Positions 10,555-39,365 of a stretch of DNA of 39,365 bases are shown here, piece by piece (position 1 is the stretch's first letter; each line of letters opens with the position of its first letter). The DNA lies in the IMG/VR virus record IMGVR_UViG_3300025098_003339, positions 1 through 39,365 of that record; one strand, written 5' to 3'. This DNA is from a virus. Position numbers and translations under genes: made by a program. The notes below the pieces were generated by a model. It worked only from the letters and a program-made list of their open reading frames with translations. It was not told the origin of the DNA and made no database searches.

Positions 10555-10557
10555 TGG

Positions 10558-10586
10558 TTGACAAAACCTGCTAGATACGCTAGTAT
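10558..10586 (+). promoter_or_regulatory. sigma-70-type promoter for nrdB
   Basis: TTGACA (10558-10563), 17-base spacer, TAGTAT (10581-10586), directly after the nrdA stop. RBS AGAGGAAA precedes ATG 10617. It lets nrdB-grx be transcribed apart from nrdA. Confidence 0.7.
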
Positions 10587-15500: not shown

Positions 15501-18500
15501 CAGATACTGTTGCTAGAATTACTGTAGGTATTAGTACGCTGAGAGTTACAGGTCACGACTTGCTTAGTATCGGTACTGGTAGTTACCAAACATCAAGCTA
15601 TCCAAACGAAATATATGGTGCACCAGAATTTGCTGCTCAACAAGCAAAAGAAGTAGTTGAAGAAGGAAAAGGTCGTGTGTTCTATGTAACCACTGACCAA
15701 GATGGTAACTTTAGAGTTGGTGACTATTTTAAAGTTGATCAAGGAACAGGTACGGTTACATTCTCAGCAAGTATTGCTCTTTCAAACTTAGACGGCATTG
15801 GATTTAAACGTGGTGTTGCAATTAGTGAATTCTCAACTGACGATGCAATGACTGATAATGCTAGTGATACTGTACCAACAGAAAGTGCAGTTCGCAGTTA
15901 TGTAAACAGAAGGCTAGGACTTACACACGCCGGGCAAGTTGTTCCTGCTAAAATTGGACCAGGATATTTAGACTTAACAGCAACACAACCGTTGACTGGT
16001 AATCTTGATATGGCAACTAATCTAATTAATAGAGTTGGGACACCAGTTAGTGGAACAGATGCAGCCAACAAAGATTATGTTGAATCTTATGCCAATAGTA
16101 AAACATTTGAAGTTAATAGTTTAAGTGCAAACGTAGACAATAGTATAACATTAGTAACAGATAATATTGACGAAGGTGTAACACCTACAAATTTATATTT
16201 TACAGACGCAAGAGCCCAAGCAGCTATTAGTGCAACTGATGCTGGTGGAGACGGAAGTTTATCATATGATAACTTAACAGGTGTAATTACCTACACTGGA
16301 CCTAGTGCAACAGAAGTAAGAGCGCATTTTAGTGCAGTTACTACTAGTGACGGTAACGATAGATATGGAGACTTTAGTTACGATAATACTAATGGAGCAT
16401 TCACATACACCGGTATTAGTATAGACGAGATACGTGGTGCATTTACTGTAACAGGTAGTATTACTTATAATGAGGCTACTGGTGAAATAGAATTTGACGA
16501 AAAAACAGATCAAGATATACGTGGTTTGTTTAGTGCTGGAGGCGACTTATCATATAATGCTAACACTGGACAATTTAACATATCAAAGTTTACTACTTCT
16601 AATGCAAGAAGTTCAATAGCAGTTACACAAACAGCAAGTGATGAAGATGAAACATATCTAGGATCGTTAACATATAGTAGTGCAACTGGTATTGCTTTAT
16701 ATACTGGTCCTAGTTTTACTGAAGTTCGAAGTGCAGTTGGAGTAAGTGGTGATTTAAGTTACGATGCTAATACAGGAGTATTTTCTTATTCAAGAACACC
16801 AACTTCTGACATTAGAGAAATGTTTAGTGCAAGTGGCGATATAAGTTACGACAACACAACTGGCGTAATCAGTTTTACCGCAGGAGAAGTTGGTGCTGGC
16901 GATGTACGAGGGTTTATTAGTGCTGCAAATACTGCCGGTATTCGTTATGGTTCTTTAGCATATGATAGTTCAACAGGAGTGTTTACACACACTGGAGTAA
17001 CACCAGCTAATATTAGAGATCAATTTAGTGGCGGTGGCAGCGTATCATACAATAGTGCAACTGGACAATTTATTGGCGGCGACATTCCAACAGCAGTTAG
17101 TGAAATATCTAACGATTCAAATTTTATTGCACTTACAGATCTTAGTGCAACTGGAGATTTATCATACGACAATACTACTGGAGTATTTTCATTTAGTGCT
17201 GATGCACAACGAACAGACGCTGATATACGAGCATTGTTTACTGGTGCAGGCGATATTAGTTATAATAGTATTAGTGGTTCATTTAGTATTGCTAGAACTA
17301 GTGTAGGTATAAGTGGTAGTGAAACTGCTGGAATAATAACACTAGCAGACAGCGGCAGCGTTGATATTACACAAAACGCAAATACAATTACTATAAGTGG
17401 TACTGATACTCAATACTCACTAAATCTTACTAATGATACAGGTGATGCCGCTGCTGATCAAACTAGAATTAGATTATCTGACGGTACTAATAATCAAGAT
17501 GTAATTTTTGCAGGAAGTGACAAGATAGATGTAAACGGAAATGTTTCAGATGGTACAATAACAATATCACATTCTACAAGCACTATACAGGACGTAACTA
17601 ATACTGCTGATGATACTGTTCTTCAAAGTATAGAATTTGACGATTTTGGTCACGTTTCAAGTGTAACATCTAAAACGCTTAGTATTGAAGATTTAGGTAC
17701 ACTTGCTGACTTAGGATACACTGGAGCAACAGATGCTAACAAATATGTATTACCAGCTGATGTTATAAAAGATGCTGAAGTTGTTGGAAATACGCTTACA
17801 TTGCAGAAGAACGATAATACTGAACTTACATTTACAAATACAACTTATTCAACTGCAACAGATTCAACACTAGGACTTGTTAAAATTGGATATACTGAAA
17901 GTGGTAAGAATTATCCAGTCGAATTATCAAGTGGCCAAATGTATGTTAATGTTCCTTGGACGGATACACAAAGAGCTATAACTGATACACCTACTGACGG
18001 AGCAACTACAACAAGTATTAGTTCTAATTGGGCCTTCGATAATGTTAAAACAGCAGTACCAGCAAATGCATTGTTTACAGATACTAATACATTTAGAGCC
18101 ATTAGTAGTACTCCTACAAATGGTGCGACTACTACAAGTATTAGCTCAGACTGGGCATTCGATAATGTTAAAACAGCAGTACCAGCAAATGCATTGTTTA
18201 CAGATACTAATACTGTAACTAGTGTAGGTATAAGCGGAAGCGAAACTAGTGGTACAGTTACTATTGCAGGTTCAGGTACTGTTACAGCAACACAAAGCGG
18301 CAATACAATTACACTAACAGGAAGTGCGGCATCAACACAAATAACAGTAACTGAAGACCGCACTAATGCCGCCACATTCTATCCAGTATTTGCTTCTGGT
18401 AGTACTGGATCTAAAAGTTTAAAAATGGACGATACTTTAACTACTGGTTTAAGTTATGTTCCATCAACATCGACACTTAAAGCAACAACATTTTCTGGTA

Positions 18501-18883
18501 ATGCAACTACAGCTAATTTTGCTGACTTAGCAGAAAAATATACCAGCGATGCTGAGTATGAAGTTGGAACTGTTTTACAGTTTGGCGGAGAAGCTGAAGT
18601 AACTATATCAGAATATGCTTCTACAAAAGTAGCAGGAGTTGTATCAGAAAATCCTGCTTACTTAATGAACTCAGAAATAGACGGAGTTGCAGTAGCGTTA
18701 ACAGGTCGAGTACCTTGTAAGGTATGGGGTCAAGTTAGAAAAGGTGATATGATGATATCTAGTAAATATAAAGGATATGCAGAAGCAAGTCATTTTGTTG
18801 GCGGAGCAATAATTGGCAAGGCACTTGAAGATAAAACTACAGACGGTGAAGGAGTTATCGAAGTAGTTGTAGGGAGATTATAA
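12539..18883 (+). CDS. giant tail fibre with repeat shaft
   Basis: 2114 residues. The N-terminus (residues 1-60, ILVRRGPTADR...GE.IYDTENDQLYIGD) matches the module of the fibre at 6039 and probably anchors it to the baseplate. Residues about 115-320 start like a pectate-lyase-type beta-helix (VLFVSPNGRDDNIFG, later ITIRVESGVYFEHFPIKVP and SIKGDEFRRSIIRP). About 1238-1590 hold many degenerate repeats of the form 'GDLSYDNTTGVFSF...IR..FS'. About 1812-1895 is a near-exact 41-residue duplication. The C-terminal 120 residues (ADLAEKYTSDAEYEVGTVL to the end) form a domain common at the ends of marine myovirus fibres, perhaps an intramolecular chaperone of the Peptidase_G2 kind. It is coupled to the PAAR gene by TAATG. 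Confidence 0.88.
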   Translation: MSDPEHGSILVRRGPTADRKTFTPLNGEVIYDTENDQLYIGDSETAGGKPAFGDKIKVDDEGNLTELTLQGTAERPTASSGLFRYNTATQSLEYSDGSDYYLVASTPFQTSTNVLFVSPNGRDDNIFGVKRGRTPGTAFASINAACREAERVINRASKGLGPYQKWITYDSQVQQQRSYIVSIGDVDDFKDIAIFKGASELDARTELRSGFRVIGQTSGAVGIIEEYNINAGQTADQLIIKVEEGTFTTNEQLKFGNPIPGVPYSEYQASGTEYPEITIRVESGVYFEHFPIKVPNNTSIKGDEFRRSIIRPRPGASASPWANTRFKRGAEHLNLDPAVVGDNPFGAHYLADRTNDVYTYAINPGDYDEAYKTLSTMATKNTLQDSVINFITTTYPSLVYDEAKCRRDVGYIVDATALDMLYGGYQETLFAALTYQGQLPADQVTETAAAINHLKVQVSALLESSEQSVAEDLIGSVVEIINGNFNAPKANDEMDVFLMNDATIIRNISVQGHGGFMEVLDPEGQILTKSPYTQTASSFSKSIAPDILFGGGMFIDGFVGNLDARIKQVNSTTEIVIDNVYRQPQTPTSFFINGTRFQIDKADTVGVGTGEYRLLLNPATPWQLSYYQIVNETAVALPTVPYNIEILTAGNISMLGNDFTQVNDLGYGVYTTNNARCELVSVFCYYNHVSYLAENGSDIRSLNGSTAYGDFALVAKGSDPLEVSDQVFVAEDVVQIATVKTTGDYPNQRGDTVIYIINPDYAPFNVSEIEIDHNGANDMNGDPVYLNRYEVTNITPIDGTNPQVYSLNIAQGAPDNPGIQVDITDGTSAVIRANQVVKYDGIIDVNPTRPSTALVYDDDPDKVYRVLAYDVVGLPEGESRITLRESYDYVKLVLDDTAGSVAGSGQVGDTTLRLDVDFDANEASRIQGAIANSKPYKFGFNGTIHEITAYRDKATTGQLYAEVDVTPALTRSFGVYPDAPTMRAGVPADTVARITVGISTLRVTGHDLLSIGTGSYQTSSYPNEIYGAPEFAAQQAKEVVEEGKGRVFYVTTDQDGNFRVGDYFKVDQGTGTVTFSASIALSNLDGIGFKRGVAISEFSTDDAMTDNASDTVPTESAVRSYVNRRLGLTHAGQVVPAKIGPGYLDLTATQPLTGNLDMATNLINRVGTPVSGTDAANKDYVESYANSKTFEVNSLSANVDNSITLVTDNIDEGVTPTNLYFTDARAQAAISATDAGGDGSLSYDNLTGVITYTGPSATEVRAHFSAVTTSDGNDRYGDFSYDNTNGAFTYTGISIDEIRGAFTVTGSITYNEATGEIEFDEKTDQDIRGLFSAGGDLSYNANTGQFNISKFTTSNARSSIAVTQTASDEDETYLGSLTYSSATGIALYTGPSFTEVRSAVGVSGDLSYDANTGVFSYSRTPTSDIREMFSASGDISYDNTTGVISFTAGEVGAGDVRGFISAANTAGIRYGSLAYDSSTGVFTHTGVTPANIRDQFSGGGSVSYNSATGQFIGGDIPTAVSEISNDSNFIALTDLSATGDLSYDNTTGVFSFSADAQRTDADIRALFTGAGDISYNSISGSFSIARTSVGISGSETAGIITLADSGSVDITQNANTITISGTDTQYSLNLTNDTGDAAADQTRIRLSDGTNNQDVIFAGSDKIDVNGNVSDGTITISHSTSTIQDVTNTADDTVLQSIEFDDFGHVSSVTSKTLSIEDLGTLADLGYTGATDANKYVLPADVIKDAEVVGNTLTLQKNDNTELTFTNTTYSTATDSTLGLVKIGYTESGKNYPVELSSGQMYVNVPWTDTQRAITDTPTDGATTTSISSNWAFDNVKTAVPANALFTDTNTFRAISSTPTNGATTTSISSDWAFDNVKTAVPANALFTDTNTVTSVGISGSETSGTVTIAGSGTVTATQSGNTITLTGSAASTQITVTEDRTNAATFYPVFASGSTGSKSLKMDDTLTTGLSYVPSTSTLKATTFSGNATTANFADLAEKYTSDAEYEVGTVLQFGGEAEVTISEYASTKVAGVVSENPAYLMNSEIDGVAVALTGRVPCKVWGQVRKGDMMISSKYKGYAEASHFVGGAIIGKALEDKTTDGEGVIEVVVGRL
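16240..17300 (+). repeat. degenerate coding repeats in the fibre shaft
   Basis: About a dozen imperfect units of roughly 25-45 codons, each with the core SYDNTTGVF or SYNSATGQF and an I-R/E-V-R-x-x-F-S segment, at least six visible by eye. They encode a repetitive beta shaft. At DNA level they are diverged, so they are old protein repeats rather than recent duplications. Confidence 0.8.
18035..18213 (+). repeat. 56-bp exact direct repeat within the fibre gene
   Basis: 18035-18090 and 18158-18213 are identical over 56 bases, from TTCGATAATG to ACTAATAC, offset by 123 bases (41 codons, in frame). The flanks are similar but not identical. This looks like a recent in-frame duplication or gene conversion that could change fibre length by recombination. 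Confidence 0.9.
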
Positions 18884-20067: not shown

Positions 20068-20371
20068 TTTAGCAGTTATAAAATATAGTGTTAATCCTGA
20101 GAACATTGGACGCATTGTAAAAGTTGCTGAATTTATTGGTCATTTTGAAAGAGGCACACATTTTCATTTTAATGGAATGATGTGCCAGGCTGCTGTCACA
20201 GATAACTTTTGGTGGATTGAAGCAGAAGATCTAAACATTATGCTCGGTCCATCACCACGTGCATATATTGCAGACACTTGGCTAGAACCAATTAAACCTA
20301 AAAAAGATAAAGGCTTAACTGCCGAAGAAATAGAAGATAGAAAGTTTGCAATGGACTTAATCTTAGGTTGA
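20048..20371 (+). CDS. small unknown protein, SH3/KOW-like start
   Basis: 107 residues. The start KQGDLAVIKYS..PENIGRIVKV has the pattern of a small SH3-type barrel. A D-x-W-L-E-P-I-K segment and an acidic helix close the protein. No family recognised. Its TGA lies within the TTGACA box of the tmRNA promoter. Confidence 0.6.
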   Translation: MKCKQGDLAVIKYSVNPENIGRIVKVAEFIGHFERGTHFHFNGMMCQAAVTDNFWWIEAEDLNIMLGPSPRAYIADTWLEPIKPKKDKGLTAEEIEDRKFAMDLILG

Positions 20372-20396
20372 CAAATACATAAGATGACTGTATAAA
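20368..20396 (+). promoter_or_regulatory. sigma-70 promoter for the tmRNA gene
   Basis: TTGACA (20368-20373), 17-base spacer, TATAAA (20391-20396). The same -10 also reads TATAAATA, so it could double as a late promoter. It overlaps the stop of the preceding gene. Confidence 0.82.
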
Positions 20397-20400
20397 TAAT

Positions 20401-20686
20401 ACTGCAACGTTGAAGCAAGCTCAACGACATACTGGACCCGGGGGCGGTACCCGGCGACTCCACCATAAGCGCACTGCAATGTCCTCTAAGGAACAAGCGT
20501 CTAACTTGTGTGTAGTGTGTTTATGATGGGGTCGAAATAGGATCGACAGGTGTTTAATAGGTAAGTGGAGTTGTCCGGCGCAAGCACGGTTATCGCAAGA
20601 AAACAAATAGAAGCAAACGAAAACTTCGCACTAGCAGCCTAAGGGTTGTTACAAGGTAGTTAGGCCTTGTTACCAAACATAGCATT
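20401..20686 (+). ncRNA. ssrA: permuted two-piece tmRNA (alphaproteobacterial type)
   Basis: Acceptor piece (about 20401-20465): hairpin CGTTGA/TCAACG, a T-arm with perfect CCGGG/CCCGG stem (20438-20442, 20450-20454) and 7-base loop, then CGACTCC and encoded A-CCA (20462-20465). Coding piece (from 20528): GGGGTCG, then the tmRNA hallmark GGATCGACAGG and the tag frame. GGGGUCG (20528-20534) pairs over seven bases with CGACUCC (20455-20461), including a G-U at the third pair, the alanine identity pair G3-U70. The pieces are in permuted order with a spacer (20466-20527) to be removed. This rescues stalled ribosomes together with host SmpB. It probably came from an alphaproteobacterial host, where permuted ssrA is the rule. 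The 5' and 3' ends are estimates. Confidence 0.93.
20613..20642 (+). other. tmRNA tag reading frame (ANENFALAA)
   Basis: The resume codon GCA follows ATAGAA, as in bacterial tmRNAs (UAG two bases before GCA). The frame reads Ala-Asn-Glu-Asn-Phe-Ala-Leu-Ala-Ala-stop. With the alanine carried by the tmRNA the tag would be AANENFALAA, ending in the ALAA that ClpXP recognises. Confidence 0.9.
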
Positions 20687-20720
20687 AAAGAGTGTTGCAG
20701 CAATGTAACACTCTTTTTTT
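20687..20720 (+). terminator. rho-independent terminator after the tmRNA
   Basis: AAAGAGTGTT and AACACTCTTT form a 10-bp stem (loop GCAGCAATGT) followed by a T-run. Confidence 0.92.
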
Positions 20721-20753
20721 ATCTTTTACAGATCTGTTAAAATACGCTCTTAA

Positions 20754-29709: not shown

Positions 29710-30162
29710 ATGACAAGACTAACAACTCTAGACCTACCTAACTTCCAACGAGCCACTATTGGCTTTGACAGACTGTTTAATGAACTCGAAAGAGGATTTG
29801 CAAATAGTCCAAACGGAAACGGGTATCCCCCATACAATATTGCACAAATCAACGAAGATGAGTTTATGATCTCATTAGCAGTTGCTGGCTTTGGTATGGA
29901 CAATCTTTCAATTGAAAAAGATAAAAATATCTTAAAAATTGAAGGCACTGCTCCTAAAGGAGATGAAGATGTTAATTACCTACACAAAGGTATTGGCGGA
30001 CGCAACTTCCGTAGAGAGTTTACACTTGCTGAACACGTAGAAGTAGAAAATGCTACACTTGAACTAGGTATGCTAAATGTACATCTAGTACGTGAAGTAC
30101 CAGAAGCACTAAAACCAAAGACTATTAAAATTAACGATAGTTCGGTTATTGAAGGCAAGTAA
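29710..30162 (+). CDS. small heat-shock protein (Hsp20/IbpA type)
   Basis: 150 residues. N-terminal arm with FDRLFNELERGF (IbpA-like), then the alpha-crystallin domain: YPPYNIAQINEDEFMISLAVAGF, LSIEKDKNILKIEGTAP, and the conserved end of the fold, A.LELGMLNVHLVREVPEALKPKTIKI with a V-P-E-A tail. It holds unfolding proteins for refolding. T4-like marine phages often encode such a protein. The leader has a possible thermometer. Next gene ClpS. Confidence 0.93.
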   Translation: MTRLTTLDLPNFQRATIGFDRLFNELERGFANSPNGNGYPPYNIAQINEDEFMISLAVAGFGMDNLSIEKDKNILKIEGTAPKGDEDVNYLHKGIGGRNFRREFTLAEHVEVENATLELGMLNVHLVREVPEALKPKTIKINDSSVIEGK

Positions 30163-30170
30163 AGAGTCTA

Positions 30171-30192
30171 GGGGGAGTGAAATATCTCCCCC
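30171..30192 (+). terminator. strong hairpin between hsp20 and clpS (no U-run)
   Basis: GGGGGAG and CTCCCCC form a perfect 7-bp GC-rich stem with an 8-base loop. No T-run follows, so it is more likely an RNA stabiliser, pause site or 3'-end protector than a full terminator. The clpS RBS (AGGAG) follows it. Confidence 0.45.
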
Positions 30193-30210
30193 AATTATTA
30201 GGAGAAACAA

Positions 30211-30522
30211 ATGAATACTGAATTTATTGAAGATGTTCAAATTGACGAAAGAATTAAAAAAGTAACACAAGAACCAATAAAGTATAAAGTTGTATTACTT
30301 AATGATGATCAGACACCAGTTGATTGGGTAGTTAAAGTACTCACAGAAATTTTTAAACATACAAATGACACAGCAGAAAAGATCACACTAACCATTCATA
30401 ACGAAGGATCAGGTGTTGCTGGCATATATACATTTGAAATAGCTGAACAAAAATCAATTGAAGCTACAACCGCAAGTAGAAATCACGGTTTCCCCTTGCA
30501 GATTAAACTGGAGGAAGAATGA
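30211..30522 (+). CDS. clpS: ClpS-type adaptor (N-end rule)
   Basis: 103 residues. ClpS core: KYKVVLLNDDQTPVDWVVKVL with the N-D-D motif that grips the N-terminal residue, then F.HTNDTAEKITLTIHNEG.GVAGIYTFEIAE with the H and GVAG loop that dock ClpA. Host ClpAP would be redirected by it toward N-degron substrates. In E. coli ClpS also inhibits degradation of ssrA-tagged proteins by ClpAP, and this phage carries its own tmRNA. The ATGA overlap couples it to the heme oxygenase gene. Confidence 0.93.
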   Translation: MNTEFIEDVQIDERIKKVTQEPIKYKVVLLNDDQTPVDWVVKVLTEIFKHTNDTAEKITLTIHNEGSGVAGIYTFEIAEQKSIEATTASRNHGFPLQIKLEEE

Positions 30523-31100
30523 GCAAAATCAAAGAGCTCACTTGGGATCATCACAAAAATGCAGAGAGACAAGAATTCGCAAAATTAATGATGGGTGGCA
30601 AAATGCATCCCGACTTGTACGCAACATACTTATGGAATCAACATAAAAAATACGACCTACTAGAAGCAATGTGTGGAGCACACGGTATATTTGCAGACAT
30701 TGGTCAAAACTTATCACGTAAATTATTAATTGAAGAAGACTTTAGAGAACTGTGGAAACACGACAATGAGCCTCTAATGGTGCAAAGTACCATTGATTAT
30801 CTTCAGCATATGCGAGATATAATGCACGACAAAAATGCGCTTATGGCCCACGTCTATGTTTTGTATATGGGAGATATGAGTGGCGGTCAAATGATAAAAA
30901 AGAAAATTCCAGGCGAAGGTCGAATGTATGATTTTGACGGAGACATACCTGCAATCAAAGATAAAATTAGAGAACTTACTACTGACGAAATGGCAGACGA
31001 AGCCAAGTGGGTATTTGACTCAGCAACACAATTATTTCAACAACTAATGGAGATAGGCCTTGAGCGTACTTTGGAACCATCTGACGCAGTGTCAGAGTGA
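30519..31100 (+). CDS. ho1: heme oxygenase
   Basis: 193 residues. HO-1-type features: TWDHHKNAE near the N-terminus (His11/His12, the proximal heme ligand is His12 by the HxxAE pattern), and AHVYVLYMGDMSGGQMIKK (Gly118-Asp-Met-Ser-Gly-Gly) forming the distal helix over heme. The reaction is heme + O2 + reductant to biliverdin IXalpha + CO + Fe2+. Coupled to clpS upstream and to the bilin reductase downstream, which uses the biliverdin. Cyanophages and some pelagiphage-like viruses carry this gene. Confidence 0.94.
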   Translation: MSKIKELTWDHHKNAERQEFAKLMMGGKMHPDLYATYLWNQHKKYDLLEAMCGAHGIFADIGQNLSRKLLIEEDFRELWKHDNEPLMVQSTIDYLQHMRDIMHDKNALMAHVYVLYMGDMSGGQMIKKKIPGEGRMYDFDGDIPAIKDKIRELTTDEMADEAKWVFDSATQLFQQLMEIGLERTLEPSDAVSE

Positions 31101-31752
31101 TATACTTGACATATTTGAAGAGTATGCAACTGAAATTGCAGAACCAGGACTAGACCACTTTAATAAAGAAGATGGCAGTTGGATTAACCGTGTGTATGCA
31201 AACGACAGTGTACGTAGAGCGCACATAGACGTTGTAGATGCACGTGAGTCTAAAGGCTTATGGATGATGCACGTATGTTGTTTTCCTGTGCTTAATAACG
31301 ATGCGCCTATATACGGCTTTGATGTTATTGCAGGTAAGAATAAAATGACTGGAGCCTTCCACGATTTTAGTCCAAGTGCTACTGTAGATCATATTATGAT
31401 TGACGGATACAAAGAAAGCGTTGAAGACTTTATACCTAAGAAGCAACGTGCTTTACCAGAATGGGCAACTAATATCTTTACAGATAAAATGCTTGCCGCA
31501 GGCAACGTAAGCGACGAAGAAGAAGCGTGTGCTATTATTGACATTGCTCTTAATAATTTACGTGCTTGGTTTGACGAAGTACCACAGTTTGACGGTGCTG
31601 GTAACAGAGATGAAGTTCAAGCGGCACAAGATTACTATTGCCACAATCAGCAACAAAATCCACATACACCAAATGTTATGAAGTCGTTAGGCTTGCCGGA
31701 AGAAGATGTAGAAGTGTTCTGTCGCGATATGCTGTTTCCTAAATTAACATAA
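31060..31752 (+). CDS. pcyX: ferredoxin-dependent bilin reductase, PcyX/PebS-like
   Basis: 230 residues from TTG 31060, with GGAG before it, overlapping the heme oxygenase end. FDBR signature: HVCCFPVLNNDAPIYGFDVIAG (residues 71-92), FHDFSP with Asp102 (PcyA Asp105 place), LPEWATNIF, and a C-terminal YYCHNQQQNPHTPNVM segment like PcyA's YCQQQQKND. At the PcyA Asp220 place there is Pro by my alignment, which fits the phage-encoded PcyX group that makes phycoerythrobilin from biliverdin with ferredoxin. The host has no phycobilisome, so the pigment's use is unknown. PebS is the alternative name. Confidence 0.82.
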   Translation: MSVLWNHLTQCQSDILDIFEEYATEIAEPGLDHFNKEDGSWINRVYANDSVRRAHIDVVDARESKGLWMMHVCCFPVLNNDAPIYGFDVIAGKNKMTGAFHDFSPSATVDHIMIDGYKESVEDFIPKKQRALPEWATNIFTDKMLAAGNVSDEEEACAIIDIALNNLRAWFDEVPQFDGAGNRDEVQAAQDYYCHNQQQNPHTPNVMKSLGLPEEDVEVFCRDMLFPKLT

Positions 31753-31778: not shown

Positions 31779-33182
31779 ATGCGCTTTAATGAGTTTAAAT
31801 CAGTAGGAACAAAATTAGTTGCAGAATCAAAAGGATTCTTTGGCAGAAATGCTGGTGACAAATTTACACATCAAGATGGTAGAGAATATGCTATTGTACA
31901 AGTAGTTGCTTACCCAGATGCACAAACAAGCAAATTTGAAACTCCTGAAGCACGAGACGAATACATTGAATTGTTTAAGAAAGAACACGGCAATGTAGAA
32001 ATTGAATGGGTTAACAAGCCTGCAAAAAATATGCTTTCCTTCGGTATAGCTCAATTAGACGATCAAGACGGCAATCACGTATACTGGGGCAAGTATATGC
32101 AGTCAGTAGGTTTTGATCTTATGGGAAGTTGGGCAAACAAACAAACTCCTCCAGGCTGGGCATTACAAACTAAAGGTGCAAAGAAGTTTGCATCAGGGTT
32201 TGACCCACAGCATTTAATTAGAACTGAAAATAGATTTAAGGGTGTCGATAGTATTATCAACACTGTTGAAAAAAATTCGGAAGAACAAGTTGTAAACGTA
32301 TTTAAAGAAGCACTACAAAATTTAGCACAAGGTCGCGGCGGAATTGTATTTCCACAGATGTACGATCAACAAGCAGCCATTCGTGATTACTTTGGAGAAG
32401 TAATGCAACCAGTTGCACTAATGGGCGGAGTTATTAAAGGTCAAGCAGAAGATGCTAGACAGCAACTAGCAGACGGTGCTGAATGGAGAGACTGTGAAGT
32501 TTATTGGCCAATGGCAATGAACGCTGCTCTATGTGACTCGTTTATGATTGCACCTAATGGCGCACAAATTGGTATTAGTTCAAAAGGCGGACAAGGTGCT
32601 GCTGCAAGTTCAAAAAACTTACACGATGCAGTTCTTAAGGCACGTAAAAATGGTAACGAAATTCTAAACAAAGGCGGAGTAGCAGAATTTGCTGCACAGT
32701 TAGTAAGCACTATCGCTGAAAATAGTCAATATGACGGACCAATTGAAGTTGGTAAAATGCTTGGCATCGAAGGTATTGACGATACCTTAAACGAAGAAAT
32801 TAAGAAATACATCAAAGAAGGTAAAAGTGACTTAGATGGTATGAGTCCACAAGCACAAAAGATTGCCGAACCGTTTGCATTTAAATTAGAAACAAAAGGC
32901 TTTAACACAGGGTATGCGTTATTAAGTGCAGCTAGTAAGACTTGTGCAAAAGTTATTAACGCCGAAGACACTTTTTCAAAAGGTGCTATTGCACTACTAA
33001 ATCAATCCGACATTATTCAATTGTATACTAAGATGGGCAAACGAGGTGATGATGCTGTACTAGGTGAATTCAAAGCAGTTTATCCACCAACATTCTCAGG
33101 CAAGGTATTACTTGAAGGCGGCAAGAACTACTACAGTTCACGTGTCGGCGGCAAGATGGCTTTTGCTATTGGGAAGAAATAA
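31779..33182 (+). CDS. large unknown protein with MRFNEFK leader (possible internal virion protein)
   Basis: 467 residues. It starts MRFNEFKSVGTKLVAESKGFF, the same seven residues as the head-type protein at 2135, so it may be brought into the head and trimmed (LVAE/S). A possible phosphate-type loop appears in ISSKGGQGAAASSKNLHDAV; the middle has AGMGG-like and DCEVYWPMAMNAA blocks; the end, GKNYYSSRVGGKMAFAIGKK, is basic. No enzyme family is recognised. It has no signal peptide. Its 3' end overlaps the Fis-like gene on the other strand by 17 bases. Confidence 0.75.
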   Translation: MRFNEFKSVGTKLVAESKGFFGRNAGDKFTHQDGREYAIVQVVAYPDAQTSKFETPEARDEYIELFKKEHGNVEIEWVNKPAKNMLSFGIAQLDDQDGNHVYWGKYMQSVGFDLMGSWANKQTPPGWALQTKGAKKFASGFDPQHLIRTENRFKGVDSIINTVEKNSEEQVVNVFKEALQNLAQGRGGIVFPQMYDQQAAIRDYFGEVMQPVALMGGVIKGQAEDARQQLADGAEWRDCEVYWPMAMNAALCDSFMIAPNGAQIGISSKGGQGAAASSKNLHDAVLKARKNGNEILNKGGVAEFAAQLVSTIAENSQYDGPIEVGKMLGIEGIDDTLNEEIKKYIKEGKSDLDGMSPQAQKIAEPFAFKLETKGFNTGYALLSAASKTCAKVINAEDTFSKGAIALLNQSDIIQLYTKMGKRGDDAVLGEFKAVYPPTFSGKVLLEGGKNYYSSRVGGKMAFAIGKK

Positions 33183-33444
33183 ACGGAAAGTCGTACTTTT
33201 TCATTTTAGCAATTAAATTAGTTCTACCTATTTTTAATAGTTTAGCAGCTTTAGATTGATTCCCTTCAGTCTTTGCAAGTGCATCACTAATTCTATCACG
33301 TTCTAACATTTCTACCTCATCGGGCAAAGCAGTTTGATATTTAAGTTCTTCGTGATATTCGGCAAGCTCTCCACATATTTTCCAAAGAGCGTCTTGTTCT
33401 TCTCTATTGCGTTGTATTTCTTTTTCTGATATTGTATTGTTCAT
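33166..33444 (-). CDS. Fis-family DNA-binding protein
   Basis: 92 residues, the only minus-strand gene seen. The C-terminal half is a Fis-type helix-turn-helix: ERDRISDALAKTEGNQSKAAKLLKIGRTNLIAKMKKY (residues about 48-84), where GN..kAAkLLkI.R..L is the usual HTH_8 pattern. The N-terminal part is helical and could dimerise. Convergent with gene 31779 and divergent from the curli cluster, whose upstream region holds three palindromes. It may repress or activate that cluster, or itself (inference). No SD is visible; a late-type motif (AATAAATA, minus strand 33456-33449) sits five bases before ATG. Confidence 0.88.
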   Translation of the reverse strand: MNNTISEKEIQRNREEQDALWKICGELAEYHEELKYQTALPDEVEMLERDRISDALAKTEGNQSKAAKLLKIGRTNLIAKMKKYDFPFISSQ

Positions 33445-33468: not shown

Positions 33469-33488
33469 GGTGTAAAATTTTTTACACC
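33469..33488. promoter_or_regulatory. 20-bp near-perfect palindrome between Fis-like gene and curli cluster
   Basis: GGTGTAAAAT/TTTTTACACC, one mismatch at the centre. A/T-rich core, no GC-rich stem; an operator is more likely than a terminator. Lies in the divergent intergenic region. Confidence 0.6.
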
Positions 33489-33492
33489 AAAT

Positions 33493-33500
33493 GATAAATA
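33493..33500 (+). promoter_or_regulatory. late-promoter-like motif GATAAATA, curli cluster (distal)
   Basis: First of two copies in the 125-base region before csgF. Confidence 0.5.
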
Positions 33501-33530: not shown

Positions 33531-33558
33531 AGTATCGATACTTCATAAATACAGTATC
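33531..33558 (+). promoter_or_regulatory. AGTATC/GATACT half-sites flanking a late promoter before csgF
   Basis: AGTATCGATACT (33531-33542) is a perfect palindrome, and a third half-site AGTATC lies at 33553-33558. GATACT (33537-33542) can pair with that third copy, looping out CATAAATA (33544-33551) with the RBS CAGGAG just after. Half-sites on both sides of a promoter suggest an operator; the RNA hairpin is an alternative. Confidence 0.6.
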
Positions 33559-33569
33559 AGGAGACTATT

Positions 33570-34034
33570 ATGAAAAAAATATTTGGTATGATCGCAATAC
33601 TACTAGCAATGCCTTATTCAGCGAATGCTGATATGGTATGGGGTTTTAAATCTCCAGCTTTCCATTACGGGAATGGCTATTCTACACACGTACTAAGTGT
33701 AGAACAGTTACAACATAATCGTAAAGAAGACTTGCGTAAGGCAGCAGAGGCAGAGGCAAGCAGGTTAGAGCGTGAATTAGAAAATACTACACTAAACAAA
33801 TTTCTTAGAAATGTTGAAAGTAGAATTTATGCTAATCTAAGTAAACAAATGGTAGACGCTATGTTTGCCGATTGTGGAGATACTTGCACTAATACAGGCA
33901 CAGCAACTATTGAAGGATCAACACTTACTTGGGTTAAAGATCCAACATCAGGCACTATTACTTTAACAATCGTTGGTGAGGACGGTAGTATAACCGAAAT
34001 CACAATTCCAGGCGCAGGGGAGTTTAACTTCTAA
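33570..34034 (+). CDS. csgF: curli assembly protein CsgF
   Basis: 154 residues with signal peptide (MKKIFGMIAILLAMPYSANA/D). The mature start DMVWGFKSPAFHYGNGYSTH fits CsgF's T.TFQFRNPNFGGNP segment that plugs the CsgG pore; LNKFLRNVESRIYANLS matches the SQIL..L..N helix, and the C-terminal beta part (TWVKDPTSGTITLTIVGEDG.ITEITIPG) matches CsgF's closing domain. A middle insertion holds a charged helix and CGDTC. CsgF anchors and nucleates curli at the pore. Coupled to csgG by TAATG. Confidence 0.88.
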   Translation: MKKIFGMIAILLAMPYSANADMVWGFKSPAFHYGNGYSTHVLSVEQLQHNRKEDLRKAAEAEASRLERELENTTLNKFLRNVESRIYANLSKQMVDAMFADCGDTCTNTGTATIEGSTLTWVKDPTSGTITLTIVGEDGSITEITIPGAGEFNF

Positions 34035-34975
34035 TGCGAATGATAAAGACGCTTTTAACTATAGGAATTGGGATATTATTTTTACAAGGATGCGCGGTCA
34101 ATCCGAGTCTCCAAGTATTAGAAAGTACTAATGTATCGCCTGTAGTACAAGTTAGTCCGATTGAAGATAGGCTTGCGGCGGTCCCCGCAATAGATGGACC
34201 AAAGATTACTATCGCTGTTTATGGTTTCAGAGATGCAACAGGACAGCGTAAGCCGGCGGACAATATCGCCAACTTGTCGAGTGCAGTAACTCAGGGCTCA
34301 GAAGTATGGGTTATTAAGGCACTCCAAGATGTAGGTAACGGCGTCTGGTTTGAAGTTGTAGAGCGTGTGGGTATGGATAATTTGATTAAAGAACGTCAAC
34401 TTATTCGAAGTACACGAGAAGTTTATGAAAAAGAACTTCCAAACGGTCCTACACCGTTAAAGCCGATGTTGTTTGCAGGGCTTATACTTGAAGGAGGAAT
34501 TGTCGGGTATGATAGCAACACAGCAGTAGGTGGCGTAGGAGCAAGATACTTAGGTGTCGGTGCTCAAACAGAATACAGGGTAGATACTGTAACTGTTGTA
34601 ATGCGTTTAGTAAGTGTTAGCACAGGGAAAGTGCTAATGAGTATAGCAACCGAAAAGACAATCGCGAGCTATAGGTCCGGAGCGGACATATTCAAGTTTT
34701 TTGACTTGGGTACAAAACTTGTAGAAGCTGAAACCGGCTACAGTGTTAACGAACCAGTTAACTATGCAGTACGAGCAGCGATAGAACAAGGAGTAATTGA
34801 AATGGTTCACGAGGGCGAACACAGTGGATTATGGAAATTTAAAGATGTAACGTATACAGGTAAGTTACCTGAAGTAAGGCCATTAGTACTAGAGGAAGCT
34901 CTTAAGAAATGGCCAGATGCAAGATTAAATTGCAGTGCTGATGACTTATGTGTACCAACAAAGGATGATGAATAA
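34034..34975 (+). CDS. csgG: curli secretion pore lipoprotein CsgG
   Basis: 313 residues, lipobox LQGC (Cys20). Clear CsgG: KITIAVYGFRDATGQRKP, WFEVVERVGMDNLIKERQLI, MLFAGLILEGGIVGYDSN, GGVGARYLGVGAQTEYRVD, STGKVLMS, SYRSGADIFKFFD and ETGYSVNEPVNYAVRAAIEQG. It forms the nonameric outer-membrane channel that exports curlins. In the constriction loop the E. coli FKPYPASNFST is RKPADNIANLSS: Tyr51 is not kept, and Phe56 appears to be Leu, so pore chemistry may differ. The extra C-terminal 40 residues include CSADDLC. Confidence 0.95.
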   Translation: MRMIKTLLTIGIGILFLQGCAVNPSLQVLESTNVSPVVQVSPIEDRLAAVPAIDGPKITIAVYGFRDATGQRKPADNIANLSSAVTQGSEVWVIKALQDVGNGVWFEVVERVGMDNLIKERQLIRSTREVYEKELPNGPTPLKPMLFAGLILEGGIVGYDSNTAVGGVGARYLGVGAQTEYRVDTVTVVMRLVSVSTGKVLMSIATEKTIASYRSGADIFKFFDLGTKLVEAETGYSVNEPVNYAVRAAIEQGVIEMVHEGEHSGLWKFKDVTYTGKLPEVRPLVLEEALKKWPDARLNCSADDLCVPTKDDE

Positions 34976-35006
34976 CCAATAAGACGAAAGTCGAGGGCAA
35001 TTAAAA

Positions 35007-35726
35007 ATGAAAAAACTTTTATACATATTACCTTTCTTGTTAACGTCTACAGTCGCTCTGGCTAATGATATATACATTACTCAGGTTGGAGACAACTTAG
35101 ACTTAGATATCGTACAAGACGGGACAGATAACGAAATCGGTAATTCAACTACTGACTTCACAATTAACGGCGACGATATGACATTCAGTATTACACAAAC
35201 AGGTAATACTAATACTATTGCTGCTACTATTAATGGTGCTGATTACACAGGAACTTGGGATTTCTTTGGAGATTCAAATGCTGTAACATTAAACTGTGAT
35301 AGTTTAGGAACAGCAGGATCAGGTAACTGTGAAGATGTACAACTAGACATTGATGGCGATGGCGACGACAACACATATACATTTAACATTGGTGAAACAT
35401 CTGATGCAGGTGGTAGTGTTTTAACGTTTGACATCGACGGTGACAATAATATTTTAAACACTACAATCGACGGTGTTGATGCTAGTGTTACTGTAGTATC
35501 GGACAATAGTGCATCACTAGCAACTACAAGTGCAGCAGGCGACGAAGGTAATGCTATTACTATTAACTCAAGCGGCGGTGCAAGTCTAGACGGTCATACT
35601 ATTAATTTAAACATTACAGGCGGCGGTAGTACATATGATATTACACAAAGCGGTGTTGACGGAAGTACAATAGAAGCAACATTTAGTGGCGATAGTCAAG
35701 ACGTAGATATAACACAGAGAGATTAA
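35007..35726 (+). CDS. curlin-like subunit (divergent)
   Basis: 239 residues, signal peptide ending AL-A-NDIYITQVGDN. It begins with a curlin repeat (IYITQVGDNLDLDIVQDGTDNEIG) and another (FSITQTGNTNTIAA); further on, repeats are looser: D-G-D-(G/N)-D-N and I-x-x-T-I-x-x. A Cys pair (LNCDSLGTAGSGNCEDV) could form a disulphide, unlike E. coli CsgA. It ends DVDITQRD. Probably a nucleator or minor subunit secreted through CsgG, but either role is possible. csgE, csgC and csgD homologues are not visible in the window. Confidence 0.82.
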   Translation: MKKLLYILPFLLTSTVALANDIYITQVGDNLDLDIVQDGTDNEIGNSTTDFTINGDDMTFSITQTGNTNTIAATINGADYTGTWDFFGDSNAVTLNCDSLGTAGSGNCEDVQLDIDGDGDDNTYTFNIGETSDAGGSVLTFDIDGDNNILNTTIDGVDASVTVVSDNSASLATTSAAGDEGNAITINSSGGASLDGHTINLNITGGGSTYDITQSGVDGSTIEATFSGDSQDVDITQRD

Positions 35727-35727
35727 G

Positions 35728-36855
35728 ATGAAAGTCTTCGCTCTAGTAGTCATCGGCCTCTTGGCTTTGAATTCACAAGCTGCTGCACAAATCGGCACAG
35801 TGACAGAGCTTAAAGGCTCTGGTGAGATTGTACGTGAGAGCAATGTAATTGGTGATACTAAAGGCATTCCTCTCGAAGCAATGGACACAGCTAGGACTAA
35901 ACGTGGAAAGATGCGTTTAGACTTCATTGATGAAACTAGAGTAGATGTTATCGATAACAGTATACTAGTCATAGACGACTTTGTATACGACCCGGCATCA
36001 GGCACGGGTAAATTAGATATGCGAGCGGCACTAGGTACAGTGCGTTATGCAAGTGGTCAAATTGCTAAAAACTCAAGACAAAATGTAAGAGTACGCACAC
36101 CAAGTGCAACTATATCTGTGCGTGGTACAGACTTTATTATGGTTGTAGATGAGATCGGTGGCTCAATGGTAACACTATTACCTAGTTGTGATGCTAGTGG
36201 GTATTGTATAACAGGCGAAATCAAAGTTGAAACAGACGAGGGATTTGTTGTAATGAATCAAGCATTTCAGGCAACACAAGTTTCTCACAGTGGGCAACTG
36301 CCATCTCCACCTGTGGTTATAGGTCTAAACGAAGATCAAATTAATAACCTTTTAATTGTACGCAAAAAAACAGTTATTGAGGAAGAAGAAGATCAAATAC
36401 GCAAACGTACCCGTACAATGTTTGAATTCCTTGACATTGACGCTTTGGAGTTTGACGATCTTGACGAAGATGCACTAGTAGAAACAATCAAAGATATCTG
36501 GGTAACAGACTTAGATTATAGTGTAGACTATTACTTAGGTGAGCTATTAGTAGATATGATAGATCAATTAAACTTAGCACTAGCGGCATTGTTTAGAGAC
36601 GAATTAAAAGCATCAAACGATCAAATTTTTGAAGCAGAGTTAGGCGGATATGATGAGACAACACGTATTACACTTAGTATAGAACAAGATAAATGGACTG
36701 TACAAAGAACTAGTACAGACGTAAATAACTATATGAAACTAAATTTAAGTCAAGAAAGTGGTTATCGTATTAATATTGAACAAAGTGATGAAGCAGTATA
36801 CGAATATATGTTAGGTTCAGGAACCAATCAAATAGATATAAAACAAAGACAGTAA
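35728..36855 (+). CDS. FecR-domain protein with curlin-like C-terminus
   Basis: 375 residues, signal peptide (ALVVIGLLALNSQAAA/Q). Residues about 22-150 form the FecR domain: GTVTELKGSGEIVRE, KGIPLEAMDTARTKRGKMRLDFID, TRVDVIDNSILVIDDF, ...VRTPSATISVRGTDF. Middle part acidic (EEEEDQIRKRTRTMFEF). The final 35 residues, LNLSQESGYRINIEQSDEAV...NQIDIKQRQ, look like curlin repeats (I-x-I-x-Q). FecR domains usually sense or bind surface signals with anti-sigma proteins; here there is no sigma factor nearby. It may cap or nucleate the fibre. Coupled to the flanking curlin genes. Confidence 0.85.
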   Translation: MKVFALVVIGLLALNSQAAAQIGTVTELKGSGEIVRESNVIGDTKGIPLEAMDTARTKRGKMRLDFIDETRVDVIDNSILVIDDFVYDPASGTGKLDMRAALGTVRYASGQIAKNSRQNVRVRTPSATISVRGTDFIMVVDEIGGSMVTLLPSCDASGYCITGEIKVETDEGFVVMNQAFQATQVSHSGQLPSPPVVIGLNEDQINNLLIVRKKTVIEEEEDQIRKRTRTMFEFLDIDALEFDDLDEDALVETIKDIWVTDLDYSVDYYLGELLVDMIDQLNLALAALFRDELKASNDQIFEAELGGYDETTRITLSIEQDKWTVQRTSTDVNNYMKLNLSQESGYRINIEQSDEAVYEYMLGSGTNQIDIKQRQ

Positions 36856-38051
36856 TGAAGATAACAGGAACACATTTAGGAATAGCAGTTATACTAACTT
36901 ACTTTGTTAGCCAATCCTGTATGGCCAATGAAATTTATGTAAACCAAGTTGGTGACAATACTAACTTGACTATCACACAAGAAGGTAATGATAATACAAT
37001 TACTGGTCTGTCAGGCGGCACTAGCAAAGCAACAATTAGTGGCAATAATACTAGTACAACATACAATCAAACAGGTGATCGTAATGCTGTAAAAGTTTAC
37101 GTATCTGCAGGCAACGGTATTACCAAAGCAATTCAAACAGGCGACGACAACGAAGCATTTTTAGACTGTCACGGTAATAATTGTGTGCTTGACGTTACAC
37201 AAACAGGCAACGACAACTATGTTTCGGCTGAAGTTGGTAATGGTGGCGACTATGATCAAAGTATTACAGTTACACAAAATGGTGATGATAATTTAGCTGT
37301 AGTTGAAGCGAACGGAGACGACAATACTATTGTTATTGACCAGGACGGTAACAATCATATGGTGTATGGCTACGGTAACACACCACTTACTGGAGACAGG
37401 AATACACTAACACTAACACAAAACGGATCACAGTACGAACAAGCAGAAATTGCTGTTATAGGAAATGACAACACCGTAGATGGTTATCAAGGTGGTGGAG
37501 GCGAAAGCAACTTTGGTAGACTGGTATTAACGGGTGATGATAACAACGTAAAAATGTGGCAAGGCAAGCAGATAGATGGTACTACTGATACGACCGAAGG
37601 TGGCGACCACGACGCATATGTTGCTATTACAGGTAATAACAATGTCTTCCATTCAGCACAAACTGATCAAGCCGCAAACTGTTGTTGGGCATCACACGAA
37701 TTAAACGCTGGTATAATTGGCGACGATAATGAAGTAAACTTATCACAACGTAAAAATGGTGCTCACACAATGTATGTTGACATAGACGGAGACGACAATA
37801 ATGTTGATGTGGCGCAAAATGGAAACCAAGGCTCAACATATCTTGATCTTGACATAGAAGGCGACTACAATCTAGTTGATGTAAATCAACACGGAGGCGG
37901 ATCACACAGTGCAACTATTGACTTGTCAAGTACATATGGGCCAGCATATAACTTTAGTTTAGAACAACACAGCAATTCAGCAAAATCATACACAATGACA
38001 AGTATATGTACTAACCCTAGCGGATGTAGCATTAGCGTAACGCAATACTAA
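36855..38051 (+). CDS. csgA: curlin major-subunit-like protein (CsgA/CsgB type)
   Basis: 398 residues, with signal peptide to about residue 24 (SCMA/NEIYVNQVGDN). About a dozen units of the curlin type follow: G-x-x-N-x-x-x-I-x-Q, for example NLTITQEGNDNTI, LDVTQTGNDNYV, ITVTQNGDDNLAV, DNTIVIDQDGNN, DNEVNLSQ. E. coli CsgA has five, so this fibre unit is much longer. Cys are present in three places (CHGNNC, CC, C...C near the end). It ends in SISVTQY, with a terminal Tyr as in CsgA. It overlaps the FecR gene by one base. Expected to be exported through CsgG and form amyloid. Confidence 0.88.
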   Translation: MKITGTHLGIAVILTYFVSQSCMANEIYVNQVGDNTNLTITQEGNDNTITGLSGGTSKATISGNNTSTTYNQTGDRNAVKVYVSAGNGITKAIQTGDDNEAFLDCHGNNCVLDVTQTGNDNYVSAEVGNGGDYDQSITVTQNGDDNLAVVEANGDDNTIVIDQDGNNHMVYGYGNTPLTGDRNTLTLTQNGSQYEQAEIAVIGNDNTVDGYQGGGGESNFGRLVLTGDDNNVKMWQGKQIDGTTDTTEGGDHDAYVAITGNNNVFHSAQTDQAANCCWASHELNAGIIGDDNEVNLSQRKNGAHTMYVDIDGDDNNVDVAQNGNQGSTYLDLDIEGDYNLVDVNQHGGGSHSATIDLSSTYGPAYNFSLEQHSNSAKSYTMTSICTNPSGCSISVTQY

Positions 38052-38054
38052 ATA
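38047..38054 (+). promoter_or_regulatory. late-promoter-like motif ACTAAATA before gene 38058
   Basis: Overlaps the csgA-like stop; the gene starts at 38058 (GTG) or 38061 (ATG). Confidence 0.4.
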
Positions 38055-38057
38055 TCA

Positions 38058-38258
38058 GTGATGAACGAATATCACTATAAAAACTTCTACTTCAAAAATT
38101 TAAACAGCCGTAGCGTATTATACAAGGACGGTTGGATACTGTTTATGGGCAACAGTTGGAGTGGCATACTAGAGTTTTTAAGAGCAACGGATAATGCACC
38201 AGAAGTACAAGCGATGTTCAAACAACAATTAGAACAACGGGAACAGCCTAGGCACTAA
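38058..38258 (+). CDS. small unknown protein in the curli cluster
   Basis: 66 residues from GTG 38058 or ATG 38061. Aromatic-rich N-terminal half (YHYKNFYFKNLNSRSVLYKDGWILFM), then a charged helix. No signal peptide, so probably cytoplasmic. Its place between the curlin and the CHASE2 gene suggests a regulatory or accessory role, but nothing else supports that. Confidence 0.55.
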   Translation: MMNEYHYKNFYFKNLNSRSVLYKDGWILFMGNSWSGILEFLRATDNAPEVQAMFKQQLEQREQPRH

Positions 38259-38276
38259 ATACTAAAAACGTGTTAG
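38254..38276 (+). promoter_or_regulatory. late-promoter motif and short hairpin before gene 38286
   Basis: ACTAAATA (38254-38261), then CTAA (38262-38265) and TTAG (38273-38276) as a short stem around AAACGTG, with RBS TAGGA overlapping the 3' arm. Same layout as at 31748. Confidence 0.45.
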
Positions 38277-38285
38277 GATCAAAAA

Positions 38286-39365
38286 ATGAAAAGATTACTA
38301 AGCCCTTGGTGGGCATTGATAACACTAGGGATATTGGTATATGCATTTGCAAACCCTAGTAACTTTCTACAAAGTATTAAATTAAATTATTTCGATCAAC
38401 TTATAGTAAGTCAACCCGCAGTTGAAAACAATATCTATGTTGTAGAAATAGACGATGATGCACTAAACAAATACGGGCAGTATCCTTTCCCTCGTAACAT
38501 ATACTCAGACATTATAAAAGACTTATACGACAAAGGTGCAGGCTTAGTTGTATGGAATATAATGATGCCAGAGGTAGATAGGCTGGGCGGTGATGCAGAA
38601 CTAGCAGAAACTATGTTAGCACTACCAGTTATACTAGCAAGCCGTCCTAGTGATAAAACAAAAAACGAACCTATTAATCCTGGTGCGGCAATCATACAAC
38701 CACAGTTCTTAGATCGCATTTTACCCTATAACGGAATTATTGCAAACATACCTATACTAGAAAACAATTCAGTTGGAGCGGGCATTGTAAGCACAGAACC
38801 AGAGATAGATGGAGTAGTAAGGCGTATGCCAACTGTTGCTGTTGTAGACGGCACACTGTATCCAAGTCTAGCACTCGAAACTCTACGTGTTATTGCAGGT
38901 GATCCTAATTTCCAAATCAAACTAAATCAGTTTGGAATTGAGAAAATGCGTATACCACAGTTTGGTATTATACCAACAGACTCAGAAGGGCGTGTATGGA
39001 TAGACTGGAGTCAACGTTCAAAACGTGTAAGCGTAGCAGACTTACCAAACGACTTTGAAGGTGCAGTAGTTATAGTAGATGTAACAGCCGCAGGTATTGC
39101 TAACCCTGCTCCTACAGCAATGGGCAGTGTATATGCAGGTGAAGTACAAGCGGCTGTACTAGGCACAATGTTTGCTGGTACAAACATACAACGTCCTGAT
39201 TGGGCGCCTACAGCAGAGCTTGTAGCACTAGCAGTAGGAGGTTTATTGCTTATCTTATTAAGCCGCTGGATGCTTATAGGGCTTGCTACAACAGTTGTAC
39301 TAATAGGCGGAGTTGTACCCTACAGTATATACACATACACAACAGAGAAGCTGTTATTAGACGTT
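38286..39365 (+). CDS. CHASE2-domain sensor (partial, runs off the right edge)
   Basis: 360 codons seen, still open at the end. One membrane helix near the N-terminus (WWALITLGILVYAFA), then a CHASE2 domain: NIYVVEIDDDALNKYGQYPFPRNIYSDII, ...GAGLVVWNIMMPEVD, EPEIDGVVRRMP, SLALETLRV, VIVDVTAAGIANPAPTAMG. Two or more hydrophobic helices start at about 316. CHASE2 is an extracellular sensor of bacterial kinases and cyclases; the cytoplasmic output domain lies beyond the window. In bacteria CHASE2 proteins are often near FecR proteins, as here, so a signalling link to the curli cluster is likely (inference). Confidence 0.85.
   Translation, partial: MKRLLSPWWALITLGILVYAFANPSNFLQSIKLNYFDQLIVSQPAVENNIYVVEIDDDALNKYGQYPFPRNIYSDIIKDLYDKGAGLVVWNIMMPEVDRLGGDAELAETMLALPVILASRPSDKTKNEPINPGAAIIQPQFLDRILPYNGIIANIPILENNSVGAGIVSTEPEIDGVVRRMPTVAVVDGTLYPSLALETLRVIAGDPNFQIKLNQFGIEKMRIPQFGIIPTDSEGRVWIDWSQRSKRVSVADLPNDFEGAVVIVDVTAAGIANPAPTAMGSVYAGEVQAAVLGTMFAGTNIQRPDWAPTAELVALAVGGLLLILLSRWMLIGLATTVVLIGGVVPYSIYTYTTEKLLLDV

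Follow-up and report, generated by a model that had tools for sequence, protein, structure and literature searches.

Why would a marine phage carry genes for curli secretion side by side with a FecR-domain protein and a CHASE2 sensor, and what might the last two contribute? The question is raised by positions 33570-39365 of IMG/VR record IMGVR_UViG_3300025098_003339, a 39.4-kb virus fragment analysed here as a whole (39,365 nucleotides; the window). The answer that we favour, to which we assign nearly an even chance, is that the phage encodes an operon for type VIII (curli) secretion that comes with a sensing arm of its own; within this arm, FecR would act as an adapter reporting curlin export to a cyclase. 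An earlier note on this DNA, made from the letters without database searches, had placed CsgF, CsgG, two curlins, a FecR-domain protein and CHASE2 in one block at these positions, and Pfam bears this out. The block contains the following genes and parts of genes, including one small open reading frame (ORF), with lengths in amino acids (aa).

33570-34034, plus strand: csgF, exported (Pfam CsgF, E 9.6e-11; alignment with Escherichia coli K-12 CsgF)
34034-34975, plus strand: csgG, outer-membrane lipoprotein pore of curli secretion (Pfam E 1.1e-49; CsgG in PDB, E 1.9e-52)
35007-35726, plus strand: curlin 1, 239 aa, with signal peptide (Curlin_rpt E 2.3e-4, barely over the cut-off)
35728-36855, plus strand: FecR-domain protein, 375 aa (Pfam FecR, E 3.5e-7)
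36628-36852, plus strand: tail of the FecR protein, its last 75 aa, with curlin-tail-like sequence by profile
36855-38051, plus strand: curlin 2, 398 aa, with signal peptide and many curlin repeats (Curlin_rpt E 8.3e-19, 4 repeats over threshold; repeat motifs)
38058-38258, plus strand: small ORF of 66 aa with GTG start, between curlin 2 and the CHASE2 gene
38286 to beyond 39365, plus strand: CHASE2 sensor protein, first 360 aa (Pfam CHASE2, E 6.6e-35), open at the window end

Most of these genes abut or overlap by one base: csgF and csgG share a base, as do FecR and curlin 2, and a single base separates curlin 1 from FecR. Signal peptides, or a lipobox Cys in the case of CsgG, can be read on the cluster proteins. 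The same gene order recurs in ~80 IMG/VR viral contigs (CsgG 66-92% identical) and in Pelagibacter phage HTVC008M and phage Melnitz, in both of which the curlin 1 homologue carries a curlin-associated annotation; two curlins are retained throughout the relatives' loci. The comparison of gene order with other phages, which the earlier note had proposed, thus upholds its reading of the cluster as phage-borne and of pelagimyophage type. Because of this recurrence the block is neither a contaminant nor a chimera; as far as sequence can tell, a chimeric join at 33.2-33.5 kb is ruled out by identical junctions in contigs from other samples, the same upstream genes being joined to csgF in independent contigs (L005, L006, L041, L045, L056, L057 and L061).

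The components of type VIII secretion are present in the form of a CsgG pore, a CsgF partner and subunits with curlin repeats, strong in curlin 2 and borderline in curlin 1. From their sequences, CsgG and CsgF are recognizable as an outer-membrane channel and its partner, and the two exported curlins as the cargo. The lipobox Cys of CsgG is kept in all 61 relatives. A search of the PDB with the window CsgF returned unrelated matches only; direct alignment with the E. coli K-12 protein reveals retention of the N-terminal F-x-x-P-x-F segment, which in the published E. coli complex lines the CsgG channel. Retention of this motif speaks against the idea of a phage CsgF that no longer performs its role. 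The residue aligned to the eyelet Phe of E. coli CsgG is Leu in 61/61 phage proteins, and CsgE, the periplasmic cap in E. coli, is found in none of 18 phage records, several of which are fragments. The earlier note had likewise not seen CsgE; the plug that it counted in the set is not CsgF, since the E. coli cap is CsgE, absent here. Given the Leu at the eyelet and the missing CsgE, gating of the phage CsgG would have to differ from that in E. coli. CsgC and CsgD do not occur among the cluster ORFs, to which the search was confined. The phage set is plausibly sufficient by itself for pore and fibre.

The FecR-domain protein begins with a signal peptide, followed directly by the FecR globular domain, a helical linker and a beta-rich tail (alignment A1 and an AlphaFold2 (AF2) model). 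The fold of the domain matches FecR/PupR signalling (anti-sigma FecR) domains in the PDB. The arrangement differs from FecIRA-type systems in that the signal peptide replaces the N-terminal, cytoplasmic anti-sigma part with its transmembrane helix and the cluster holds no sigma gene. The protein can be recognized as exported, not as an anti-sigma factor, and a role as iron regulator was rejected on this architecture. In the AF2 model, the tail forms six strands with a predicted local distance difference test (pLDDT) score of 88. A profile of the phage curlin C-terminus reaches at least 5 bits in 41 of 49 FecR tails, compared with 3/1227 other ORFs and 6/980 shuffled tails. The tail is absent from bacterial FecR relatives; in ~70 of them a loose version of the tail motif stands at the end of one only (L152), where it lies within a proline-rich stretch and looks like chance. 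That the full-length FecR protein came from bacteria was considered and set aside: its best genome matches (L084-L087 and L107) look like phage contigs within bacterial bins. These five contigs, from Rhodobacteraceae, Pirellulales, Flavobacteriaceae and Pelagibacter bins, hold all or part of the phage curli cluster and are likely to be phage DNA placed in the wrong bin; L087 has its CHASE2 cyclase broken into two frames.

The CHASE2 protein is identifiable as a membrane receptor. Because the part in question lies beyond the record, which the window already spans in full, its ending in a class III cyclase is assigned by homology: in each of the seven full-length relatives that were scanned, a Guanylate_cyc domain comes after CHASE2, and one of them (L004) is 86% identical to the window protein over the shared part. 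Across 36 distinct clusters, the sensor half forms three classes, set apart by a gap at 40-50% identity, and the cyclase half is unimodal, a combination of discrete sensor classes beside a continuous cyclase that points to sensor exchange within the CHASE2 gene. The phage cyclases keep the metal-binding Asp pair, the Lys, the Asp/Thr and the Arg. The catalytic set is incomplete at the Asn that in class III cyclases usually helps to stabilize the transition state, which is Ser in 38/39 phage cyclases and Asn in all 19 bacterial relatives aligning there.

Exploratory co-variation tests on the same 36 clusters suggest which parts of these proteins belong together. In a partial correlation that removes the signal shared with CsgF, CsgG and curlin 1, the FecR globular domain and the CHASE2 sensor give r 0.36-0.51, which none of 5000 permutations reached and which is stable to pruning: r is 0.36 over all clusters and, after pruning, 0.40-0.51 at a CsgG identity of 0.90 or 0.85 and 0.44 at 0.80. 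Sensor similarity tracks the globular domain of FecR and no other part, the values for the FecR middle and for CsgG being about -0.1. When sensor classes are placed on the trees, the FecR domain requires 3 changes, CsgG 5, curlin 1 and the rest of FecR 6 each, CsgF 7 and the cyclase 8. Simple linkage is a poor explanation of this pattern, because between the FecR domain and the sensor lie the remainder of FecR and curlin 2. The FecR tail, in turn, co-varies with curlin 1 (r 0.28-0.32, p <= 0.003) and not with the adjacent curlin 2 (-0.01), and the FecR middle co-varies with neither. The suggestion of a sensing arm formed by FecR and CHASE2 therefore looks right from co-variation, while the partners themselves are not new (PMC9599517).

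Pairs of this kind are not confined to phages. A sample of 41 alphaproteobacterial genomes holds 46 CHASE2 genes, 12 of which have a FecR gene no more than 5 kb away, compared with 0.38 expected, or ~30 times the chance rate; one of the 12 belongs to the centre genome, which was picked because it has the pair, so that 11 remain. SAR11 single-cell genomes L148 (6479-10414) and L119 encode a short FecR close to a CHASE2 receptor whose output is a SpoIIE phosphatase. In Burkholderia, an operon of a FecR-LysM protein and a CHASE2 kinase regulates biofilm, and the factors recognized by CHASE2 are stated there as not known (PMC5192318); CyaD1 of Sinorhizobium meliloti makes cyclic AMP (cAMP) constitutively when its CHASE2 is removed (PMC5498481). 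In view of these pairs and of the behaviour of CyaD1, FecR-CHASE2 would appear to be a signalling unit of general use, joined to curli in these phages.

Control of the operon would fall to a divergent gene and a set of sites ahead of csgF.

33166-33444, minus strand: Fis-type (HTH_8) DNA-binding protein, 92 aa, divergent from csgF (Pfam HTH_8, E 7.2e-15)
33469-33488, no strand assigned: palindrome GGTGTAAAATTTTTTACACC, predicted operator of the Fis-type protein, between its gene and csgF; one site in the window
33493-33500, plus strand: T4-like late promoter box GATAAATA, 5 bp past the palindrome core
33544-33551, plus strand: second late-promoter-like box CATAAATA, by sequence, 26 bp ahead of the csgF start

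This divergent helix-turn-helix (HTH) gene and the 66-aa ORF had both been overlooked in the first reading. Relatives of the Fis-type protein stand at the same place in many loci; among isolated phages it finds no match. Of 17 upstream regions that have the Fis gene, 16 contain a palindrome of this form, against none of 47 that lack the gene; in the exception (L006) its left arm has decayed. In L040, where the Fis gene (10171-10560) sits between csgG and curlin 1, palindrome and late box have moved along with it. A box of the form [N][AC]TAAATA follows 4-6 bp downstream of the palindrome at every Fis-linked site, for which the chance is ~0.001 per site; it resembles the late promoter of T4, TATAAATA. 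An HTH_8 domain with a linked palindrome is the pattern of a Fis-type regulator, for which the palindrome is the predicted operator. From the position of that operator, the protein is predicted to repress late transcription; activation is also possible. A second short perfect palindrome, AGTATCGATACT (33531-33542), stands directly before the second late-type box. The 66-aa ORF has no Pfam or PHROG match. It is 95% identical in L009-L011 although the adjoining CHASE2 is just 34% identical, and in other loci it sits upstream of the Fis gene; it may be mobile.

Put together, the proposed adapter mechanism would run as follows. Infected cells would secrete curlin fibres late, from the late promoter controlled by the divergent Fis-type protein. 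FecR would serve as an envelope adapter, its globular domain docking onto the CHASE2 sensor and its tail contacting curlin 1, so that passage or build-up of curlin would be reported across the inner membrane and alter cyclase output. With the CsgE cap missing, the most likely use of such a circuit would be the tuning or timing of curlin export. A more specific version, in which CHASE2 is switched by its partner FecR, the phages added the curlin-contacting tail so that infected cells gauge their own curli export, and the Fis-type protein gates the operon at the late promoter, is possible, and we hold it with some doubt.

Several observations weigh against a FecR adapter that signals to an active cyclase. 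Pfam Curlin_rpt matches 0/40 FecR tails, and a PDB search with the confidently modelled tail gave no significant fold match, curlins included; for both reasons "curlin-like" is a statement on the sequence pattern of the tail only. With profile-profile scores marginal as well, proven curlin repeats in the tail were dropped as a candidate. The Ser in place of the transition-state Asn may lower catalysis. A cAMP-receptor domain is found in 0/15 phage records and in only 2/15 SAR11 genomes. The co-variation tests were of an exploratory kind, on 36 sequences related by descent, and partial correlation takes out only part of that shared history.

Other explanations concern what the fibres, or the pore, are for. 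Zaragoza-Solas et al. (2020), who described csgF and csgG in pelagimyophages, proposed as a speculation that fibres keep freshly divided hosts together and thereby bring released virions into contact with new hosts (PMC7029224), an idea shared by Wittmers et al. (2022; PMC9599517); FecR and CHASE2 would then be secondary. Such sibling capture fits the conservation of two curlins throughout and, being about the purpose of the fibres, is compatible with the adapter model. It leaves the conserved FecR-CHASE2 pair unexplained, however, and Buchholz et al. (2022), who found the cluster in phage Melnitz, saw no clumping in culture (PMC9004378); we regard it as possible and somewhat doubtful. A curlin coat that stops competing phages from adsorbing to the infected cell, listed by Wittmers et al. 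(PMC9599517), would suit a late-expressed export system with surface fibres, but late expression is late for exclusion, and this purpose appears unlikely. The proposal made for Melnitz, that CsgG-CsgF alone acts as a pinholin- or secretin-like timer of lysis (PMC9004378), could draw on the invariant eyelet Leu and the missing CsgE. The outer-membrane lipobox of CsgG, the channel-facing motif kept in CsgF and the retention of curlins, FecR and cyclase with the pore in nearly all loci speak against it and make it rather improbable.

An iron-responsive FecR that regulates the operon, the sense in which Wittmers et al. named it (PMC9599517), is consistent with the domain and its fold; the signal peptide that stands where the anti-sigma part would be, and the lack from the cluster of either a sigma factor or a FecA-like gene, render it very improbable. 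That the curli genes are passengers without present function might be suspected from a host without curli genes (PMC9004378), yet open frames, conserved order and invariant residues over ~80 divergent loci, along with transcripts in marine metatranscriptomes (PMC9599517), leave hardly any room for this. If the adapter model is right and FecR links curlin to a CHASE2 cyclase, the role of curli in phages that infect the most abundant bacteria of the ocean becomes testable, as does CHASE2 sensing in the many bacteria that pair CHASE2 with FecR.

The rest of the window encodes a tail fibre, an exonuclease, a cell-wall hydrolase and a ribonucleotide reductase. Because the nearest relatives of its NrdA are those of cyanomyophages (72%), a T4-like marine myophage is the likely source; searches with gp23 and terminase left the phage lineage unsettled, most records compared being fragments. 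A permuted alphaproteobacterial transfer-messenger RNA (tmRNA) gene lies at 20353-20733 (tag ANENFALAA), and a two-piece tmRNA is present in Melnitz too (PMC9004378). A heme oxygenase gene overlaps that of a ferredoxin-dependent bilin reductase (30519-31752), a pair usually found 5' of csgF in relatives. It is followed by a 467-aa protein (31779-33182) that has no Pfam, PHROG or isolated-phage match and is retained ahead of csgF in a few relatives. A ClpS-like adaptor gene comes after an Hsp20 gene at 29710-30522, and Mtd_N domains occur in two tail-type proteins (12539-18883 and 6039-7778), one with a pectate-lyase-like fold.

How, then, does the locus compare with systems already described? 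The curli cluster itself is not new, since Wittmers et al. published the full pelagiphage set, CsgF-CsgG-CsgA/B-FecR-CsgA/B-adenylate cyclase, and detected it at all 65 stations and in metatranscriptomes (PMC9599517); what is new and open to test is the FecR adapter model, together with the cassette of Fis-type gene, palindrome and late promoter. The pelagiphage type VIII secretion system of that study has the same genes in the same order and lacks CsgE. The window differs in its divergent Fis-type gene, palindrome and late box, on all of which that text is silent, neither palindrome nor promoter being mentioned; its podovirus clusters, unlike the window, are preceded by a histidine kinase. 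HTVC008M (KC465899, 7562-13807) has the same order and a CsgG ~53% identical, with a cyclase that bears the canonical Asn and other bacterial-type motifs. Melnitz, a Methylophilales phage (MZ577098), also shares the order, with annotated curlin, FecR and cyclase, and its cyclase motifs are those of the window's relatives; neither phage has the Fis gene or palindrome. The csgBAC-csgDEFG genes of E. coli share CsgG, CsgF and curlin repeats with the phage records, which are without CsgE, just as the E. coli operon is without FecR or CHASE2. In the Burkholderia BiofilmReg operon (PMC5192318), where FecR carries LysM, the receptor output is a histidine kinase and curli genes are absent, an exported FecR protein is again encoded beside a CHASE2 receptor. 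In the SAR11 pair, with its phosphatase output, a FecR that stops after its domain and no curli, the genes for FecR and CHASE2 likewise lie close by one another.

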